Below, piece by piece: positions 10,841 through 22,945 of a DNA stretch of 64,000 nt; within the stretch, counting starts at the first letter, position 1, and each line of letters opens with the position of its first letter. A model generated the notes under the pieces. The model had not been told where the DNA came from and searched no databases. It worked only from the letters and a program-made list of their open reading frames with translations. Origin of the DNA: Methanoregulaceae archaeon (GTDB taxonomy: Archaea > Halobacteriota > Methanomicrobia > Methanomicrobiales > Methanospirillaceae); assembly GCA_015660965.1 (NCBI GenBank), contig JACTVG010000002.1:186001-250000 (forward strand). The letters run 5' to 3'. Both the position numbers and the translations under genes were made by a program.

Positions 10841-11920
10841 ATGCCAATTATGAAAATTCGTGGTGGAGACCTTGACCTCGTAGAATACGAGTTCAAGACG
10901 TTTGAACCTGGGAAGACCCTTAAGACCCTTGATTATGAGAAGAGGCGGTACATAATAAAACCATTCAAAGGAAAAGTTGCCGTAAAAGCACCAGCACGCA
11001 TTCATTTGACTGTTCTTGATATGAATCGTTTTGCCCCTGATCACCCCGGAGGAGGTGGTGTAGGGTTCGCAATTCAATGTTATTGCAGCGCTGAAGTAGA
11101 GTGCACTGACGGCAAGCTAGACATTGACTATAACCGTGAACCAATCATCCGCAATTTTGTGGAAGTCTTTAAAAAAGTCGTTGGTTATAAAGGAGGATTC
11201 CGGATCCGTGTAACTGATCACGAACATAAACATGTTGGACTTGGATCGACAAGCACGGTGATGATTGCAACAGCGACAGCAATTAATGAAGCAGTTGGTT
11301 CACCATTGACGAACGACCACCTTCGCAAGTTGATCGGTCATAATTATGTTGAAGAAACAGCCGATGGTAATGTTGCTTTCGGTTTTGAGACTGGTGTGGG
11401 CCCTGCAGTAAGCACACATGGAGGCATGGCAGTCATGGGTGACGAGCTGACACTGGTGTATCACCATCCCTTTGCTGAGGGAAAACATGTCCATATATTG
11501 ATCCCTCCAACTGACATCTCATCGGCAGGAACAAAAGAATTCGATTTACTTATGAATAAAGCCAGAACACTGGATTACCGAGACCGTGAACTGAAAGCTT
11601 ACTTAGTCCTCATGGATCTCATCCCGGCTCTTGAGAATGAGGATTTAAAAAAGATTGGAGATATCATTTGGGAGATAGAATTCCGCGGATCCAAACGTGC
11701 TGAAGTGGAGCACCATAGTTATAAGATCTATCATTACATGAGTATGCTACGAGAGGCAAACCTCGAATTTGTTGGAATGAGCTCGGTGGGACCTTCAATC
11801 GCGGTTGTAACAGAGAAGGACAAAGTGGAAATGGAAAAACTTCTCAAACCCTTGGGACTTAAAATTGCAATAAGTACAAAAGTAGATAACAAGGGGTTGA
11901 CTATTACGTCGAAAACCTGA
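10841..11920 (+). CDS. mptG: Beta-ribofuranosylaminobenzene 5'-phosphate synthase family (GHMP fold)
   Basis: Candidate for the first committed step of tetrahydromethanopterin synthesis, coupling 4-hydroxybenzoate or p-aminobenzoate with PRPP. 359 residues. After a 45-residue N-terminal extension the family pattern begins (A-R-I-H-L-T-V-L-D-M-N, then G-G-V-G-F-A-I). The GHMP loop is H-V-G-L-G-S-T-S-T and the C-terminal G-M-S-S-V-G-P-S-I closes the fold. These match beta-RFAP synthases better than sugar kinases, but a paralogue with another substrate is possible. GAGGT precedes the ATG; cotranscribed with the DUF2148 gene. Confidence 0.7.
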   Translation: MPIMKIRGGDLDLVEYEFKTFEPGKTLKTLDYEKRRYIIKPFKGKVAVKAPARIHLTVLDMNRFAPDHPGGGGVGFAIQCYCSAEVECTDGKLDIDYNREPIIRNFVEVFKKVVGYKGGFRIRVTDHEHKHVGLGSTSTVMIATATAINEAVGSPLTNDHLRKLIGHNYVEETADGNVAFGFETGVGPAVSTHGGMAVMGDELTLVYHHPFAEGKHVHILIPPTDISSAGTKEFDLLMNKARTLDYRDRELKAYLVLMDLIPALENEDLKKIGDIIWEIEFRGSKRAEVEHHSYKIYHYMSMLREANLEFVGMSSVGPSIAVVTEKDKVEMEKLLKPLGLKIAISTKVDNKGLTITSKT

Positions 11921-15829: not shown

Positions 15830-17206
15830 TCAATCCTTTTTCCGACACCGATCTATGAAATGTTGGAACATATTTATACTAGCGACTGGATGAAGATGAG
15901 TGTAGCTACCAAGTGTATTATAAACAACAGCGCCATCAAGAGCCTCGTGGATCCCGATACCCCGCGAGAGATGATACGCATACTTAGTTGTCAAATCTAA
16001 CGTCACTTTAGAATAGTGGAACTCATGTCCACGGAACCGTGCTTTCCCAAAGAGAGAGTTTTTCCCACTAGTCCCTTCAACGTAACTTACTACCCTTCTA
16101 GCAGGCATCTGTGTTGTTCCAGAAAATACCCCGCACATTGAAAAAGACTGACCTTTCTCAGAACCTTGCCAACCAGCTTTAAGTTTTATTTGATCCGTCA
16201 GATACATCAACCCTCCACATTCTGCATAAAATGGAATATTATTAGAGGACATTTCTTTTACGGCGTTTCTCATTTTCTCGTTCACTTCAAGATCGGCGGC
16301 ATATAATTCCGGATAACCACCACCGATAATATATCCGTCAGCGTTTGGTAGACGATCATGAATTGGACTGAACATTATTGCTTCTGCACCAGACGAACTG
16401 AGAACATCAAACAGATCTGCATAATAAAAATTGAAGGCTTCATCTAATGCAACACCTATACGAACATCGGGTTCATAATTTGAATCGAATAGAGCGGAGC
16501 TTGTATTTTTTATTGGGATATTAACCATAAGATGTTGTAATTGATCCAGATCCACATATTTCCCAATAATTTTAGTTATTATCCTAATTCGATTGTCGAA
16601 ATCTCCTCTCCCAGATCCCTCACGATACGGGACGAGTCCGAGATGTCGCATGGTAAGGTGCATTTCCTCCATTCGGGGGATTGAACCGATAACAGGTATT
16701 TTACAATAGTGTTCGATCGCGGTAACCGCTTTGTCTTTGTGTGTGGTTCCCTTCACATTATTGAGAATTACCCCAGCAATATTAATTTCAGGATCAAAAT
16801 CACAAAAACCTTTGACGATAGCAGCAGCGCTCCTTGTAATGCTCTGGGCAGATACCACAAGTATGACAGGAAGTTTTAGCGTTTTGGCTATAGATGCAGT
16901 AGTACCTATATCGTTAAGAGCTTCTGAACCTTCATAAAGTCCCCGCACTCCTTCGACAAGTGCAATATCTGCTCCTTTACATCCATGAGCGAAAATTCTG
17001 CGGATTAATTTTTTATCCATCGTAAAGCTGTCAAGGTTTCGGCATGGACGACTCGTGACAGCAGTTAGATAGGATGGATCTATGTAATCCATCCCGACTT
17101 TAAAAGTTTGAACGACATTTTTTTTTGATAGAAGGGATGAAAGTGCTAGAGTAATGCTTGTCTTACCGCTACCAGAACGATCACCGGTAATGAGAAGAGC
17201 CTTCAT
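15830..17206 (-). CDS. cfbB: Ni-sirohydrochlorin a,c-diamide synthase
   Basis: ATP- and glutamine-dependent amidation of Ni-sirohydrochlorin in coenzyme F430 synthesis. 458 residues of the CobB/CbiA family: N-terminal P-loop G-D-R-S-G-S-G-K-T-S and a C-terminal class I glutamine amidotransferase domain whose nucleophile is Cys330 in Y-A-E-C-G-G-L. The family alone does not separate cobalamin from F430 enzymes; linkage to cfbA, cfbD and cfbE makes CfbB the better call. The start overlaps the cfbD stop by 4 bp. Confidence 0.9.
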   Translation of the reverse strand: MKALLITGDRSGSGKTSITLALSSLLSKKNVVQTFKVGMDYIDPSYLTAVTSRPCRNLDSFTMDKKLIRRIFAHGCKGADIALVEGVRGLYEGSEALNDIGTTASIAKTLKLPVILVVSAQSITRSAAAIVKGFCDFDPEINIAGVILNNVKGTTHKDKAVTAIEHYCKIPVIGSIPRMEEMHLTMRHLGLVPYREGSGRGDFDNRIRIITKIIGKYVDLDQLQHLMVNIPIKNTSSALFDSNYEPDVRIGVALDEAFNFYYADLFDVLSSSGAEAIMFSPIHDRLPNADGYIIGGGYPELYAADLEVNEKMRNAVKEMSSNNIPFYAECGGLMYLTDQIKLKAGWQGSEKGQSFSMCGVFSGTTQMPARRVVSYVEGTSGKNSLFGKARFRGHEFHYSKVTLDLTTKYAYHLSRGIGIHEALDGAVVYNTLGSYTHLHPVASINMFQHFIDRCRKKD

Positions 17207-18267
17207 GCAAGACTCCGGAGAACAGACCCAAACTCGCTCTCAACAATTTCCCTCACACCAAGAGTCTTGGGGTGAAGATCAACTTCAACTATGACATGTT
17301 GGTGACCAATAGCACGAAGAGGTTCAACCTGTCTTGGTCCATTGGTAATAGAAAAACATTCGATCCCTAAGGTGTATTCAGGAGGGATTGCATGCGGTAC
17401 TCCAACAAGAAGAGCGAATGAGGGTGAGATTGATTTTAGCCGCTGTCCAATCGCTTCTCCGTTAGCTCCATACTCATCGAGAGCTCCTATTAGGTCGCAT
17501 GTTAACCCACGGTCATCCATTCCTTTGATGATCCGTTTTGCGTCCTCCCTCACTTTAGGAAGTCCTCGGTCATCGAGATTCGCGATATAAGTAATATTTG
17601 CGTCAGGACAAGCATCATGGAGGGCGATAAGTTCATCTGCAAACATATAAGCAGTTTCTTTCTTTGCATTAAGTACCGCTACACCTTTTTTGCCGCTTCG
17701 TGCAAATTTGATAAGTTGCTGTGCTACAATGTGTTTTAAATCTCCCCGAGAAGGTGCAATGTAGGCAATACTCGCTGCCCCGCGTATCCGTTCAACTTCG
17801 TTTGCTTTCTCCATAAGAATTCGCTGTCGTTCAAGCTCATCATCACTAATCCATCCTGCCTTTTGAGCCGCTTCTAATGTTGCCAAAACACCCGCAATAT
17901 TCTCTGAATAACCTGCATGAATATCGACAGCAATTGTTGGTGTCTTTATATTGGCATTTTCAACAGCAGAGATCAGGTCCTCACCGATTATCATCGCTAC
18001 ACATGTACCAATCACTGCCATACGAGTGGGTGCAAATCGTTCTTCAGCATATTTTAGCACATTTTCTAAGGGTTTCTGACCACCAAAAATAAACTCGTTA
18101 TCGGCAAGAGATGTTGTAAGGACATGCATTCCATCTTCTTCAAGTAGTCGAGCATGCTTAAACGAACATCCTGACGGTCCATGAAGTATAGCAACATCAA
18201 CCTCAAGATCACGTGCTGTGTATAATGCAGCGACAATCGAGCTAGGACGGGGATGCATGTATTTCAT
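17203..18267 (-). CDS. cfbD: Ni-sirohydrochlorin a,c-diamide reductive cyclase, NifD-like subunit
   Basis: With the NifH-like CfbC it carries out the six-electron reduction and lactam ring closure to 15,17(3)-seco-F430-17(3)-acid. Nitrogenase component 1-like fold: H-G-P-S-G-C-S-F-K at about residue 30 and V-I-G-T-C-V-A-M near 128 carry conserved cysteines. The ATG at 18267 (M-K-Y-M-H-P-R-P) is chosen because GGAGATGA lies just upstream; an in-frame GTG at 18291 would extend it by eight residues into cfbE. No cfbC lies in this window. Confidence 0.9.
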   Translation of the reverse strand: MKYMHPRPSSIVAALYTARDLEVDVAILHGPSGCSFKHARLLEEDGMHVLTTSLADNEFIFGGQKPLENVLKYAEERFAPTRMAVIGTCVAMIIGEDLISAVENANIKTPTIAVDIHAGYSENIAGVLATLEAAQKAGWISDDELERQRILMEKANEVERIRGAASIAYIAPSRGDLKHIVAQQLIKFARSGKKGVAVLNAKKETAYMFADELIALHDACPDANITYIANLDDRGLPKVREDAKRIIKGMDDRGLTCDLIGALDEYGANGEAIGQRLKSISPSFALLVGVPHAIPPEYTLGIECFSITNGPRQVEPLRAIGHQHVIVEVDLHPKTLGVREIVESEFGSVLRSLA

Positions 18268-18271
18268 CAGT

Positions 18272-19486
18272 TCATCTCCAAGTTTTAACACCTAGTACAA
18301 TGCTACCGTTTTTGGTTATTGAAAGAGCAACATCTCTTGCTTCCGTTAAAGTGGGAATACGAACTATGTTATTTTCATTGAATATATGTAAAACCTGCTT
18401 GTCAAGAAGTGAATGTCCAACAAGGATAACATGATTTGGTTTTATCGCTCGTATCGCCTCAATTATCTGATTATCTGGAAAACCTTCACAAACCGCACCA
18501 TTCGCCGTCTCTTTTCCTATAACAAGGGTGAGGTTGTGAGAACCTGCAATCATTCGAGCATATTTCGCAGCTTCAATCGTTGTCATCGAGTTTGTCCCAC
18601 TATTAGCATTATCGACAATGACAACATTGTGGATTTGGTGGATTGAAAGCCGCCCACCTATTGCTTGAAAATTGGATAATAATGACGGTTTTATTCCCAT
18701 CAAACAAGCAGCAGTCCCAGCTAACATGAGTGGTATTCTATATCCTTCGAGTTTAAGAAGAGGGTTATAAAATATCTCTGACATTTTGTTGGATTCAATA
18801 TGACAAACAGTTCCTGAACAGTGGGTAATATCTTCAAGTTGGATCATTTTTGATGACGTTGGTTCTATACCTGGAGCCAGGAGAACCTTATCACAATTTT
18901 TAGCAGATTTCAGTTTCTCTTCAAGAGCCCTTTTTTTTCCTGCGGCGAATACGTAGTCATCCGATGAAGTAATTATTGCAAGCGAACCTGCACCTGTAAC
19001 TCCGAGTGATTCCTCTGCTATGAGCCACCCACTGATTTTTGTCGCTTCTTTCACAGCACCGAGTACCGATGCAGGAGTAATACTTTTTTTCCAGAGTTGT
19101 TGTCGATCGGGGTAAAGAAACGTTCCTGCGGATGTATGCAGAATACCAGTACTTTTCATTATATGGGCAAGTGCAAATGCAGTTGTAGTTTTACCTTTAG
19201 AACCGGTGATTTCTATCATTGGTTTTGGGATAAACTTACCAATAAGCCGTCGAACAGCATCATGGTGTGAGATTACATTAGCTTTTGGCGATCTTAGCAA
19301 AACATGGTCTGGATCTAAATGTACTGGTGCAACTATTAGATCATATGAGCGTTGAAGTGCCGTTGAGACATCAATAGTACTTTCATTTCGGTACACATCA
19401 ACCGTATCCACCTGATGACCCGCAACAGCAAACTCTTTTCCGATTACGTCTCCGCCGTGGATAGTGTCAAGTACCAGTATATTCAT
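18272..19486 (-). CDS. cfbE: Coenzyme F430 synthetase (Mur ligase-like)
   Basis: ATP-dependent closing of the last ring of F430. 404 residues related to MurD/MurC ligases: P-loop E-I-T-G-S-K-G-K-T-T-T at about residue 92, a central ligase domain with V-D-N-A-N-S-G-T, and a C-terminal domain with G-K-E and I-K-P-N-H-V. It follows cfbA by 10 bp and precedes cfbD by 4 bp, a tight operon. The unusual short N-terminal domain agrees with CfbE rather than peptidoglycan Mur enzymes, which this organism would not need. Confidence 0.92.
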   Translation of the reverse strand: MNILVLDTIHGGDVIGKEFAVAGHQVDTVDVYRNESTIDVSTALQRSYDLIVAPVHLDPDHVLLRSPKANVISHHDAVRRLIGKFIPKPMIEITGSKGKTTTAFALAHIMKSTGILHTSAGTFLYPDRQQLWKKSITPASVLGAVKEATKISGWLIAEESLGVTGAGSLAIITSSDDYVFAAGKKRALEEKLKSAKNCDKVLLAPGIEPTSSKMIQLEDITHCSGTVCHIESNKMSEIFYNPLLKLEGYRIPLMLAGTAACLMGIKPSLLSNFQAIGGRLSIHQIHNVVIVDNANSGTNSMTTIEAAKYARMIAGSHNLTLVIGKETANGAVCEGFPDNQIIEAIRAIKPNHVILVGHSLLDKQVLHIFNENNIVRIPTLTEARDVALSITKNGSIVLGVKTWR

Positions 19487-19496
19487 AAAAAAAGTG

Positions 19497-19898
19497 TTAA
19501 AGGTATTCTAGAGCCTTCTGAACATTTTTTACCATTAGGCTCGCAAGCAGTGGATCGCTGCCGATTGGATCAGCGTAAAGAAGTGGTATAGTTGTTCCAT
19601 TAAGGGCAAACGTTCCTTTTTTCTGCCCAGTTTCAAGCCCGATTTGTGATGGTATATCCTTTTCAATATGGACACCCTTTGCAAGAAAGAGTGGGACAAC
19701 AACAAGTGCATCGATTTTTTCATTATGAAATGAATTGAGGGCCTCTTTAATAGAGGGGCTATTAATATTCATAAAACCGCACTTGACTACAAAATTCTTC
19801 GTTTGTGCGGCAATCAATTTCGCTGTTGTCTCAACAAGTTCTTTGTTGTAGGGCATTGAGCTTCCATGTCCTACAAGTAAGATTCCTTTCATACTCAT
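19497..19898 (-). CDS. cfbA: Sirohydrochlorin nickelchelatase / cobaltochelatase
   Basis: Small CbiX-type chelatase inserting Ni2+ (F430) or Co2+ (B12) into sirohydrochlorin. The catalytic histidine is in L-V-G-H-G-S-S-M-P close to the N-terminus; V-V-P-L-F-L-A-K-G-V-H holds a second conserved histidine. About 133 residues from the M-S-M-K-G start at 19898; a longer in-frame start at 19940 would add 14 atypical residues. First gene of the cfbA-cfbE-cfbD-cfbB operon, so probably the operon promoter lies in the 78-bp gap with the divergent nuclease gene. Confidence 0.92.
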   Translation of the reverse strand: MSMKGILLVGHGSSMPYNKELVETTAKLIAAQTKNFVVKCGFMNINSPSIKEALNSFHNEKIDALVVVPLFLAKGVHIEKDIPSQIGLETGQKKGTFALNGTTIPLLYADPIGSDPLLASLMVKNVQKALEYL

Positions 19899-19976
19899 AT
19901 AGCAAAGAGTATTACTGCAAACCTTAAAAATTCTTACCAAATTGTTTTTTGCGAGGAGAGGTTAATATAAAAGATA

Positions 19977-20438
19977 ATGAGCGACTTTGAACGCGAGATC
20001 GTCCACTGTTTGAACCGATTTTTCAAAATCCATCACATCCAAGGTTTTGCATACAGACTTAAGCAGCATAAATTTTCTTCCCAGTACGTTGATGTCCTTG
20101 TCGATTCACTTAATCCCTCCTACTACATGGCTATTGAATGTAAATCGATTTTAGATAAAAAACTCTATTTTACGCAACATTTTCATACTGACAGAAAGAG
20201 TGTTCACCAAGTGGATGCAATATCTGATTTTTTAAAAAAAACAGGACGTACGGGTTTTCTCGCGATTGAGTTTCGTTTTGGTGCCGGAAAAGCAAATGAG
20301 GCATATTTAATCCCATGGACAAGAGTTATTGAACATTTCGAACTTAACCGCGGAATTAGTATTGATGATGCAAGGAACTGCATTAGGCTTGCAAGATCTC
20401 GTGAGGGATATCTGCTAGAAACTCTCTATGCAAAGTAA
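19977..20438 (+). CDS. PD-(D/E)XK nuclease-like protein, Hjc-related
   Basis: 153 residues. The arrangement of an N-terminal glutamate (F-E-R-E-I-V), V-D-V-L-V-D-S and then M-A-I-E-C-K-S matches the E-D-ExK active site of archaeal Holliday-junction resolvase-like nucleases. The middle region differs from canonical Hjc, and the protein is somewhat longer than the usual about 125-140. Could resolve branched DNA or be a divergent restriction-type nuclease. Divergent from cfbA; 32 bp ahead of mmp9 on the same strand. Confidence 0.65.
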   Translation: MSDFEREIVHCLNRFFKIHHIQGFAYRLKQHKFSSQYVDVLVDSLNPSYYMAIECKSILDKKLYFTQHFHTDRKSVHQVDAISDFLKKTGRTGFLAIEFRFGAGKANEAYLIPWTRVIEHFELNRGISIDDARNCIRLARSREGYLLETLYAK

Positions 20439-20470: not shown

Positions 20471-21610
20471 ATGATGGAATCCTTCGAGCGATTTGGGCTT
20501 GTCATTAATGACAAAATTGTAAAGACCCCCATAGCAATCGCTGCGATGGCAGGCATTGTGGACGCCGAATACGTACTGGCACGAGCACCGCATATTGGCG
20601 CAGCTTTCATCGGAGGATATTCTATTGATGAAAAAACAATGGCAGCTGCAAAAACAATTGCTACTACTGGTGATAGAAAAGAATTTTTATATGATGACCC
20701 AGTAACAGAACTCAAATCCCAAATTAAAAAAATGGAAAAAAGTCATGTCGTTCTTGGATTGAATTTACGAGGTAGCACACCAGAATCTTATAGTTCAATT
20801 GCAGAATCTCTTGGTGATTCGGTTGTTTATGAGATAGATGCGCACTGCCGGCAGATTCCGATGATTGAAGCGAATTGCGGGGAGCATTACCTACATCATC
20901 CAAATGATCTTGTAACAGTTGTTAAATCCTTAAAGGCTCAGGATGTAACAGTATCTGTCAAAATTCGTGCTGGTATTGCTCCAAATGACATTGTATTAGC
21001 TCGGAAACTCTGGAAGGCGGGTGCCGATATTCTTCATATTGATCTGATGGATTTTGGTTATACCAAAATCCGCCAAATCCGTAACAGTTGCCCTCTCATG
21101 TTAATTGCAAATAATTCAATTAATTCATTTGATGGGATGAAGGAAATGTTCTCGCACGGAGCAGACCTGGTATCTTTAGCTAGGAAATCCGATGAAAGAA
21201 CACTTGCAGGACTTGATGCTGCCATCACACGCTATACTGATGAAAATGGGTGGTACAACTCTCCAAAACAGCTATGTCGTGGTGGCGATGTTCGTGCACT
21301 TACATTCTGCTGCATGCCAGTGAAAGATTGTCCACTTATTCCAACCCTCAAACGTCATGGAATTTCTAAGGAAGATTTTCTTAAAATTAAGATGGATGCT
21401 GTTCGGGATTCACCGCTTCAAAATGGGCAACACACCTGTTTTGGAAGTCTTGTCTGGTGTTGCAAGTTATCATCACCGTGTATGTTTCGGGATGTAACGA
21501 TTCGAGATGAGGGACTCACTGGCAAAGAATATATGCGTCTAAAACGCGAGCTTTCTGATGTTATAATGAGCCAGGTATTCCATGACATGCCGCATGATGA
21601 CGCGGGCTGA
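20471..21610 (+). CDS. Methanogenesis marker protein 9
   Basis: 379 residues. The N-terminal two thirds are a dihydrouridine-synthase-like TIM barrel (I-A-A-M-A-G-I-V near residue 22; V-S-V-K-I-R-A-G-I-A near 165). The C-terminal third has many cysteines (T-F-C-C-M-P-V-K-D-C-P; C-F-G-S-L-V-W-C-C; S-P-C-M-F-R), probably metal or Fe-S ligands. Conserved in methanogens as marker protein 9; function unknown. It overlaps the CitG-like gene, starting a three-gene operon. Confidence 0.88.
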   Translation: MMESFERFGLVINDKIVKTPIAIAAMAGIVDAEYVLARAPHIGAAFIGGYSIDEKTMAAAKTIATTGDRKEFLYDDPVTELKSQIKKMEKSHVVLGLNLRGSTPESYSSIAESLGDSVVYEIDAHCRQIPMIEANCGEHYLHHPNDLVTVVKSLKAQDVTVSVKIRAGIAPNDIVLARKLWKAGADILHIDLMDFGYTKIRQIRNSCPLMLIANNSINSFDGMKEMFSHGADLVSLARKSDERTLAGLDAAITRYTDENGWYNSPKQLCRGGDVRALTFCCMPVKDCPLIPTLKRHGISKEDFLKIKMDAVRDSPLQNGQHTCFGSLVWCCKLSSPCMFRDVTIRDEGLTGKEYMRLKRELSDVIMSQVFHDMPHDDAG

Positions 21611-22403
21611 ACGCGCTCAGCTCGCGATGATGCTAGAAGTTTGTGCATATCCCAAACCTGGAAACGTCGATCGCTGTCATGATTTTGAAGAGACTCGACT
21701 CGAACATTTCCTTGCTTCTATGATCTATGCTCGTTCGTCACTTGAAGAAGCAGAACGTGGAGAAGGAAGAATTGGTGAAATAATCAAACATGCTGTTTCC
21801 GCAACCGGATGCCATGAAGGGGGTAATACTCATTTCGGAGCTTTTATCTTACTTATACCTCTTGTTTATGGAAACGATATATCAGGTGCGTTAAAAGCAA
21901 TCGAAAAAACCGATGTTTCTGACGCTGTGGCGTTTTATAAAGCCTTTGGGATGACTAAAGTACGGATGCATCCAACAGATAATCTGGATGTCAACGATCC
22001 TCGATCACTCCAAATCATTAGAGATCAGGAAATTACACTCTTAGATGTTATGCAACATTCCGCTCCAAATGATATGATCGCTAGAGAGTGGGTAACAGGA
22101 TTTCCACTCACTCGTCGGGGGGCAGATCTTATAAAATCGTTTGGTCATGGACATCAAGCGATTTCACAGGCATTTCTTACTTTACTAGCTACCGAACCAG
22201 ACACATTTATCATAAAGGAACATGGGATTACCGTAGCGCAGAATACCATGTCACGTGCCCAGATGGTGCTTGATAGGAAATTACGAATCGAAGATTTTGA
22301 TGCTGAATGTATTTCGAAGGGCATTAATCCGGGCTCTATTGCCGACATTATTATTGCGGCCATCTATATCGCGTTAGGAGAAGGGTGGGAATGGGACTTC
22401 TAA
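21582..22403 (+). CDS. Triphosphoribosyl-dephospho-CoA synthase-like protein (CitG/MdcB family)
   Basis: 273 residues. Characteristic segments are E-V-C-A-Y-P-K-P-G-N-V-D-R near the N-terminus, G-C-H-E-G-G-N-T-H-F-G at about residue 80 and L-T-R-R-G-A-D-L-I. Bacterial homologues make the citrate-lyase prosthetic group; no such lyase appears here, so the methanogen version must act in another ATP-dependent ribosyl or nucleotide reaction. Starts at 21582 or 21594 are both possible and both overlap mmp9. Overlaps the DUF447 gene too, giving strong coupling. Confidence 0.85.
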   Translation: MTCRMMTRAERAQLAMMLEVCAYPKPGNVDRCHDFEETRLEHFLASMIYARSSLEEAERGEGRIGEIIKHAVSATGCHEGGNTHFGAFILLIPLVYGNDISGALKAIEKTDVSDAVAFYKAFGMTKVRMHPTDNLDVNDPRSLQIIRDQEITLLDVMQHSAPNDMIAREWVTGFPLTRRGADLIKSFGHGHQAISQAFLTLLATEPDTFIIKEHGITVAQNTMSRAQMVLDRKLRIEDFDAECISKGINPGSIADIIIAAIYIALGEGWEWDF

Positions 22404-22945
22404 AAGAAGGGATTAATGAGGTAATTGCCACTACGCGTTTTAACGCTGCACCAATGGGAATTATTTATAGGAATGGACAAATGCGAATGGCACTATATAT
22501 TGGCAGTCATACAGCTCAAAATATTGAAAAAGAGCGGTGGATTGTTGCGAATATTATTCATGACCCAGTTATGTATGTGACTACCGCGTTCTCAGATTTA
22601 TCACAGGATACATTTGTTTCAATCGATGTAAATGACCGGAAAATGTATTACCTTGCCAATAGTGAAGCATGGATTGCATTTGATACAGTAATTGAACAAC
22701 GTGGTGTAGAATCGATGACCGTAAGACTCGCATCCTTGCATGAAGAAGTTTTATCTGCCAATGTTTGTCCAGTTAACAGAGGATTTAACAGCATCATAGA
22801 CGCGACAGTGCATTCCACAAGATACGTGATTTCCCGAGATCCAGCCTTAAAAAAAATAATTGATTATCATATCGGAATTGTGAAAAGGTGTGGGGGGACA
22901 AGAGAATTAGAAGCACTTGAATTGCTACAACAATATATAAAATGA
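22391..22945 (+). CDS. DUF447 protein (flavin reductase-like split barrel)
   Basis: 184 residues. The N-terminal G-L-L-K-E-G-I-N-E-V-I-A-T-T and A-P-M-G-I-I match DUF447, whose fold resembles FMN-binding split barrels. The exact role is unknown. ATG at 22391 is preferred over GTG at 22385 because GGAG sits 10 bp upstream. It overlaps the CitG-like gene by 13 bp and ends the mmp9 operon; the next gene (hypE) converges from the other side across 148 bp of T-rich DNA on both strands. Confidence 0.85.
   Translation: MGLLKEGINEVIATTRFNAAPMGIIYRNGQMRMALYIGSHTAQNIEKERWIVANIIHDPVMYVTTAFSDLSQDTFVSIDVNDRKMYYLANSEAWIAFDTVIEQRGVESMTVRLASLHEEVLSANVCPVNRGFNSIIDATVHSTRYVISRDPALKKIIDYHIGIVKRCGGTRELEALELLQQYIK

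Follow-up and report, generated by a model that had tools for sequence, protein, structure and literature searches.

A conserved CitG-like and DUF447 gene pair beside mmp9 in a methanogen genome is a probable part of tetrahydromethanopterin biosynthesis

Methanogens, and many bacteria that live on methanol, carry one-carbon units on tetrahydromethanopterin (H4MPT). To our knowledge, the enzymes that turn the intermediate derived from ribofuranosylaminobenzene 5′-phosphate (RFAP) into the ribitol–ribose side chain of this cofactor have not been assigned. We analysed a 64,000-nucleotide stretch of the genome of a Methanoregulaceae archaeon (contig JACTVG010000002.1, positions 186,001 to 250,000; hereafter the window), in which genes for Mmp9, a CitG-like protein and a DUF447 protein overlap on one strand. 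Taken as a whole, the data are best explained if the CitG-like and DUF447 proteins work as a conserved enzyme pair in H4MPT biosynthesis and probably correspond to Orf7 and Orf19 of methylotrophic bacteria.

The closest described systems are the H4MPT islands of these bacteria, with the published gene orders mch-orf5-orf7-fae and orf19-orf20-afpA-orf21-orf22 (PMC3615186). According to PMC8141765, mutant work places orf5, orfY and orf17 in methylofuran synthesis, for which they are needed; orf9, orf21 and orf22 are homologues of MfnF, MfnE and MfnB, and the paper's text contains neither orf7 nor orf19. DmrX and AfpA are dihydromethanopterin reductases of the flavin mononucleotide (FMN) type, as stated in PMC6193120, and mptG, the dihydropteroate synthase (DHPS)-like orf20 and the afpA/DmrX gene belong to H4MPT. 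Since the other island genes mostly have roles in methylofuran or H4MPT, orf7 and orf19 are left for missing shared steps. Our literature search found no paper joining CitG or DUF447 with methanopterin, and none joining triphosphoribosyl-dephospho-coenzyme A synthase with H4MPT biosynthesis or methanogenic archaea; the proteins called Orf7 in PMC7391723 and PMC5244752 are products of other genes.

When the CitG-like protein of the window was searched by tblastn against 72,556 plasmids, 30 records matched, and 9 were examined besides one haloarchaeal record. Five annotated bacterial matches sit in mch–mptG islands, four of them with fae, and four unannotated loci (L028, L029, L032 and L034) contain mptG and DUF447 by tblastn. 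Mmp9 had no tblastn match at the bacterial CitG-like loci. The Phyllobacterium island has mch, a RimK-like gene, the CitG-like gene and fae, as well as DUF447, DUF6513, a flavoprotein, an MfnE-like gene and MfnB. Because this order matches the one published in PMC3615186, we use the names orf7 and orf19 for the bacterial CitG-like and DUF447 genes. The Phyllobacterium orf20 product is DHPS-like (TIGR00284); the island's flavoprotein is similar to dihydromethanopterin reductase, and each scores under cut-off.

The three overlapping genes of the window are:

20471..21610, + strand: Mmp9 (TIGR03277 152.2 bits, cut-off 96.2), with a barrel resembling dihydrouridine synthases (Dus) at about residues 26-240 and a methanogenesis-marker-9 tail at residues 260-367 that has 8 cysteines
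21582..22403, + strand: CitG-like protein, archaeal counterpart of Orf7 (PF01874 229 bits, cut-off 27; E 8.7e-68)
22385..22945, + strand: DUF447 protein, archaeal counterpart of Orf19 (PF04289 97.5 bits, cut-off 24; PF20766 68.8 bits, cut-off 24.8)

Open reading frames and family profiles bear out the positions and overlaps given in an earlier, model-made first-pass annotation. Counted from the first possible starts, Mmp9 and the CitG-like gene overlap by 29 bases and the CitG-like and DUF447 genes by 19. The alternative starts ATG 21597 (CitG-like) and ATG 22391 (DUF447) shorten the overlaps to 14 and 13 bases; for DUF447, whose first start is GTG 22385, the ATG is likelier.

The CitG-like protein belongs to a subfamily distinct from the enzymes that serve citrate lyase and malonate decarboxylase. 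Against the CitG equivalog TIGR03125 it scored 35.2 bits, the cut-off of 272.3 not being reached. In a 46-row tree (20 archaeal rows, two of them identical, 19 Orf7 and 7 CitG/MdcB; midpoint root for drawing only), the archaeal and Orf7 rows group together and are split from CitG/MdcB by a branch of 2.12 with support 100/100. Within this group the archaeal rows form one side and the Orf7 rows another (support 98/96 and 95/98), and the window protein is about 25-33% identical to 24 bacterial rows. Residues K25, G27, V29, G65, N82, T83, G86, D207, P250, G251, A254 and D255 (numbered as in the window protein) are common to archaeal, Orf7 and CitG/MdcB proteins, whereas N28, N249, P93 and D114 mark the archaeal and Orf7 proteins, with other or variable residues at these sites in CitG/MdcB. 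The CitG-like protein has KPGN and NPG motifs where the 7 CitG/MdcB rows have KPGL and SPGG. A structure model built from the window protein and 24 relatives (mean predicted local distance difference test score, pLDDT, 91.5) had a single clear fold match, PDB 3h9p (Z 26.4); many ADP-ribosylhydrolase/DraG-fold entries matched weakly (Z 2.2-3.2). No relative was found among viral contigs. The window, the only part of the genome searched for them, holds no gene for citrate lyase or malonate decarboxylase (tblastn at E 1e-3 with E. coli CitC/D/E/F/X and Azospirillum MdcC/D/E/G). Within that scope the first-pass annotation was right that these lyases are absent, and its claim that the enzyme serves a different cofactor agrees with the score, tree and residues.

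RFAP synthase (MptG) catalyses the first committed step of H4MPT synthesis, the one step confirmed by PMC6787355, and the pair co-occurs with it. Among 190 Alphaproteobacteria genomes, strong matches were found to DUF447 in 8, MptG in 7 and Orf7 in 7, weaker matches in further genomes (DUF447 1, MptG 4, Orf7 2) being set aside. With the seed genome G196 left out (n = 189), Orf7 and MptG were both present in 5 genomes, Orf7 alone in 1, MptG alone in 1 and neither in 182 (p = 1.9e-8). For DUF447 and MptG the corresponding counts were 5, 2, 1 and 181 (p = 6.6e-8). In a sample of 196 evenly drawn Halobacteriota genomes, MptG matched in 191, the CitG-like protein in 187 and DUF447 in 185, the pair occurring in methanogens and non-methanogens alike. 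The most telling genomes of this sample are the haloarchaea G008, G060 and G119, from which MptG and both genes of the pair are missing together. The genome of the window has its own MptG (G000:C170; NF040726 413 bits, cut-off 328). Since the pair is also found in non-methanogen archaea and in bacteria with H4MPT islands, its cofactor is not methanogen-specific, contrary to the suggestion made from the window alone.

Adjacency to H4MPT genes was seen in part of the archaea. We fetched about 7 kb around the pair at 48 loci of 47 archaeal genomes (G149 twice; 40 were chosen to spread over families and not at random). A dihydromethanopterin reductase lay near the pair in 11/47 genomes and a DHPS-like gene in 5/47, and genome G001 has CofD, Mmp9, CitG-like, DUF447, DmrX and DHPS-like genes in a single row. 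Identity checks at loci L036, L053 and L038 gave 414 and 323 bits for TIGR02700 and 393 bits for TIGR00284, all above cut-off. Together, the subfamily, the co-occurrence with MptG and this partial adjacency make it very probable, on comparative genomics, that the CitG-like and DUF447 proteins act in the H4MPT pathway.

The chemistry of the superfamily suggests which steps they may catalyse. CitG links the phosphoribosyl group of a donor to a ribose hydroxyl by an alpha-glycosidic bond, and in H4MPT the terminal hydroxyl of the deoxyribitol bears a ribose phosphate in alpha linkage. The CitG-like enzyme would keep the CitG catalytic scaffold with a different acceptor site, and would add ribose (phosphate) in alpha linkage to the deoxyribitol 5-hydroxyl of an H4MPT precursor, with phosphoribosyl pyrophosphate (PRPP) or ATP as donor. 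By this analogy, we lean slightly towards the CitG-like protein being the alpha-ribose transfer step of H4MPT assembly. The step that opens the ribofuranose to deoxyribitol depends on FMN, and DUF447 is presumably an FMN-binding split-barrel protein. By phmmer it matched PDB entries 2nr4, 2iml, 2ptf and 3b5m over nearly its full length (E 1.1e-32 to 1.3e-3), of which we take 2nr4 to contain FMN. DUF447 might form the deoxyribitol by reducing the ribofuranosyl moiety of the intermediate derived from RFAP, an assignment to the ribitol-forming reductase step that is tentative and weaker than that of the CitG-like step.

Several points weigh against a role of the pair in H4MPT assembly. The pathway assignment is drawn from gene comparison and the proposed enzyme chemistry from that of the superfamily; CitG uses ATP, whereas PRPP has been reported for the methanopterin step. 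In the window, no H4MPT gene stands directly beside the pair, and a weak MptG paralogue lies 9 kb off. When MptG is counted at its curated cut-off, the 189 Alphaproteobacteria give 4, 2, 1 and 182 genomes for Orf7 and MptG (p = 1.4e-6) and 4, 3, 1 and 181 for DUF447 and MptG (p = 3.4e-6). Misfits in this sample are G263, with Orf7 and DUF447 and no MptG, and G212, with DUF447 only. The association with MptG in Halobacteriota is modest, because the genes are nearly universal there (p = 6.5e-4 with any match and 0.019 with MptG at E 1e-30, the genomes not being independent). The pair is present with a weak or no MptG match in seven genomes that are 98-99% complete and come from families of the window's order (G056, G091, G096, G101, G121, G145 and G163), and likewise in G010, G031 and G071. 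Conversely, G178 (95% complete), G155 and G103 have MptG without the pair, and the CitG-like gene alone is missing from G082, G093 and G123; some of these Halobacteriota misfits may be assembly or masking gaps. CofD lies near the pair in 12/47 archaeal genomes, including 7/8 haloarchaea, an adjacency that could point to coenzyme F420. Lastly, PMC8305020 describes haloarchaea as users of folate (tetrahydrofolate) that lack enzymes specific to methanopterin, and in which the MptG homologue HVO_2628 probably does not form RFAP but catalyses another reaction. It is conceivable, though doubtful, that haloarchaea keep or lose MptG, CitG-like and DUF447 genes together and use them to produce a methanopterin-type pterin that is ribosylated and derived from RFAP, with the CitG-like protein representing a new activity class, alpha-ribosyl transfer to a sugar alcohol. 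The haloarchaeal gene set raises the question of an unsuspected pterin and is worth a second look.

Of the alternatives to a two-gene H4MPT function, the one that survives best, improbable as it is, places Mmp9, the CitG-like protein and DUF447 in a single pathway or complex that serves a cofactor specific to methanogens. Mmp9 (TIGR03277) matched in 89 of the 196 Halobacteriota genomes, 79 of them above cut-off. In 77 of these 79 the three genes are consecutive on one strand, so the arrangement is not due to chance; the exceptions are G191, with Mmp9 on a different contig, and G091, unscored since its DUF447 position is absent among the matches listed. The frames overlap, and the tail-less barrel of haloarchaea often precedes the CitG-like gene too. 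However, the CitG-like and DUF447 genes are far wider in distribution than Mmp9, as the counts above show, and the bacterial pair stands without it. Among the matches listed, CitG-like and DUF447 genes are adjacent in 27 of the 51 scored genomes without a full Mmp9, and the non-adjacent cases all fall in families f10, f18 and f24 (organism names attached to our family codes f1-f30 are inferred). Three haloarchaeal-type genomes, each 99% complete (G008, G060 and G119), lack MptG, CitG-like and DUF447 genes altogether and retain the CofD and barrel genes, side by side in stretches free of N. In G038 and G180, the CofD–barrel half and the CitG-like–DUF447 half lie at separate places. In addition, 10 genomes have a weak Mmp9 match of the tail type, and in none of them does it adjoin a CitG-like gene. 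Because three haloarchaea keep CofD and the barrel without the pair, two genomes split the halves and the tail occurs alone elsewhere, the three genes are not one unit. The locus is two units, the CitG-like and DUF447 pair and a separable Mmp9. A three-gene complex is therefore unsupported outside methanogens; within methanogens the genes do travel together, so the independent distribution that would have refuted the first-pass annotation is not seen there.

Mmp9 is composed of two halves with different associations. The barrel half scores 114 bits against TIGR00736 (under the cut-off of 218.7) and 23.7 bits against the Dus-family profile PF01207 (over the cut-off of 20.4), and 8 cysteines are found in 7/7 aligned tails, in keeping with the TIM (triosephosphate isomerase) barrel and cysteine-rich tail seen at first pass. 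A tRNA role was rejected, since the DusB equivalog TIGR00737 gave 19.7 bits (cut-off 293.3) and a tblastn search of the window with E. coli DusB gave no match at E 1e-3. A search of the PDB by phmmer returned designed TIM barrels and weak matches only, and a single-sequence model of Mmp9 had a mean pLDDT of 35.3. The Mmp9-type barrel (TIGR00736) matched in 127/196 genomes. Of the weak TIGR03277 matches, the two examined (L046 and L048) are the tail standing alone. At L048 (4592-5080, an f12 genome with McrA), the lone tail ends a row of Mmp3, Mmp6, Mmp5, Mmp15, Mmp17 and Mmp7, and Mmp3 is associated with methyl-coenzyme M reductase (MCR) according to NCBIfam, which links the tail to MCR rather than to CitG-like/DUF447. 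Strong McrA matches occurred in 105 genomes, 83 with and 22 without an Mmp9 match, and 6 genomes had Mmp9 without strong McrA. Mmp9 is best read as a separate, methanogen-restricted add-on, in which a Dus-like barrel, of the kind found beside cofD in haloarchaea, is fused to an MCR-associated cysteine tail.

Further observations on Mmp9 were made in individual lineages. At L037 (4427-5380, f22, Methanothrix-like), the barrel is degenerate, its conserved AHC and KxR motifs gone and the cysteine tail intact, which also speaks against one three-gene pathway. Five Archaeoglobaceae-like genomes of f9 (G063, G092, G127, G173 and G183) have strong McrA and no Mmp9, so Mmp9 is not in every MCR-bearing lineage. 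G149 (100% complete) has an Mmp9 match and no McrA match, and G148 has a McrA match, no Mmp9 and a weak CitG match only; contig breaks are possible in both.

A part for the pair in the making of methanofuran or methylofuran, the C1 cofactor that shares the bacterial island, is a poor prospect. The bacterial pair does stand among MfnB, MfnE, MfnF-like, Orf17 and ATP-grasp genes, and island genes of this kind act in methylofuran synthesis according to PMC8141765, but that text omits orf7 and orf19. Moreover, MfnB had no match in 44/196 Halobacteriota genomes, haloarchaeal families included, and 40/44 of these have MptG, CitG-like and DUF447 genes. The control genomes of Haloferax volcanii and Sulfolobus acidocaldarius likewise match MptG, CitG and DUF447 and not MfnB. 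Retention of the pair in MfnB-less genomes makes a methanofuran role unlikely.

A role of the pair in coenzyme F420 maturation, to which the frequent neighbour cofD might point, is very improbable. Most haloarchaeal loci read CofD, barrel, CitG-like, DUF447. Yet CofD and the barrel persist where the pair is missing (L159-L161), the two halves are apart in G038 and G180, and the bacterial pair sits in formaldehyde-oxidation islands; the pair-less genomes in particular make an F420 role unlikely. As a separate observation, the tail-less Dus-like barrel directly adjoins cofD in 13/13 examined haloarchaeal genomes (loci L024, L140-L142 and L155-L163; Natrinema, G190, G089, G129, G109, G028, G046, G156, G008, G060, G119, G038 and G180). 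A flavin TIM barrel beside CofD might, speculatively, be a reductase of F420 assembly; the idea stays speculative because f16 and f19 genomes with cofD have no barrel.

Least probable of all, a triphosphoribosyl-dephospho-coenzyme A synthase serving a lyase or acyl carrier protein not yet recognised would fit the full-length PF01874 match and conserved catalytic scaffold, but a CitG/MdcB function is rejected on the TIGR03125 score (35 of 272 bits), the position outside the CitG/MdcB tree side (100/100), the KPGN/NPG rather than KPGL/SPGG residues and the lack of any citX, citDEF or mdc partner gene in the window.

The other features near the three genes are:

10841-11920, + strand: divergent protein of the RFAP-synthase family (NF040726 88.6 bits, cut-off 328; TIGR00144 77.8, cut-off 113.5)
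15830..19940, − strand: cfbB, cfbD, cfbE and cfbA of coenzyme F430 (NF033195, TIGR03282, NF033197 and NF033198, all above cut-off)
19977..20438, + strand: Hjc-like nuclease (PF01870 22.7 bits, cut-off 21.1)

The F430 genes are the divergent neighbour of Mmp9 in 7/7 other examined genomes of families f1-f6, and are a conserved neighbour and no part of the module. The Hjc-like nuclease ends 32 bases before the Mmp9 start on the same strand; it adjoins Mmp9 in some relatives only (G101, G121 and G062) and is therefore also a neighbour outside the module. Homologues of hypE, hypA and hypC lie downstream of the three genes. Elsewhere in the genome, MptG (L116, 3616-5151) follows a domain like chorismate-pyruvate lyase (PF01947, 94.7 bits) in one fused protein; this domain could provide MptG with hydroxybenzoate. 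At about 510-600 amino acids, the open frames at MptG of other f1-f5 genomes suggest that MptG is fused in the same way in these too.

If the CitG-like and DUF447 proteins are H4MPT biosynthesis enzymes, an old gap in this pathway becomes testable with two genes, a widespread misannotation as triphosphoribosyl-dephospho-coenzyme A synthase is corrected, and the pair provides possible targets for methane inhibitors. Among known proteins, CitG and MdcB share the superfamily PF01874 and the catalytic-scaffold residues with the window protein but differ from it in tree side, signature residues and equivalog score, and in having lyase genes as partners, of which the window holds none. The putative CitG of Archaeoglobus fulgidus (3h9p) has the same fold and superimposes on our model over 219 residues at 2.1 A with 31% identity. 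The DUF447 matches in the PDB are of the same family and are titled hypothetical or uncharacterised, and bacterial Orf19 has both Pfam domains (PF04289 and PF20766) in common with the window protein. Mmp9 shares its barrel with Dus/TIGR00736 proteins without reaching the TIGR00736 and TIGR00737 cut-offs; its haloarchaeal and Archaeoglobaceae-like relatives consist of the barrel half only, and those at L046 and L048 of the tail half only. Compared with the H4MPT islands of methylotrophs, the window differs in having Mmp9, which has no tblastn match there, and F430 genes as neighbours. In these islands the companions are MptG, a DHPS-like Orf20 (TIGR00284) and an AfpA/DmrX-type flavoprotein, and it is with their Orf7 that the CitG-like protein of the window groups.

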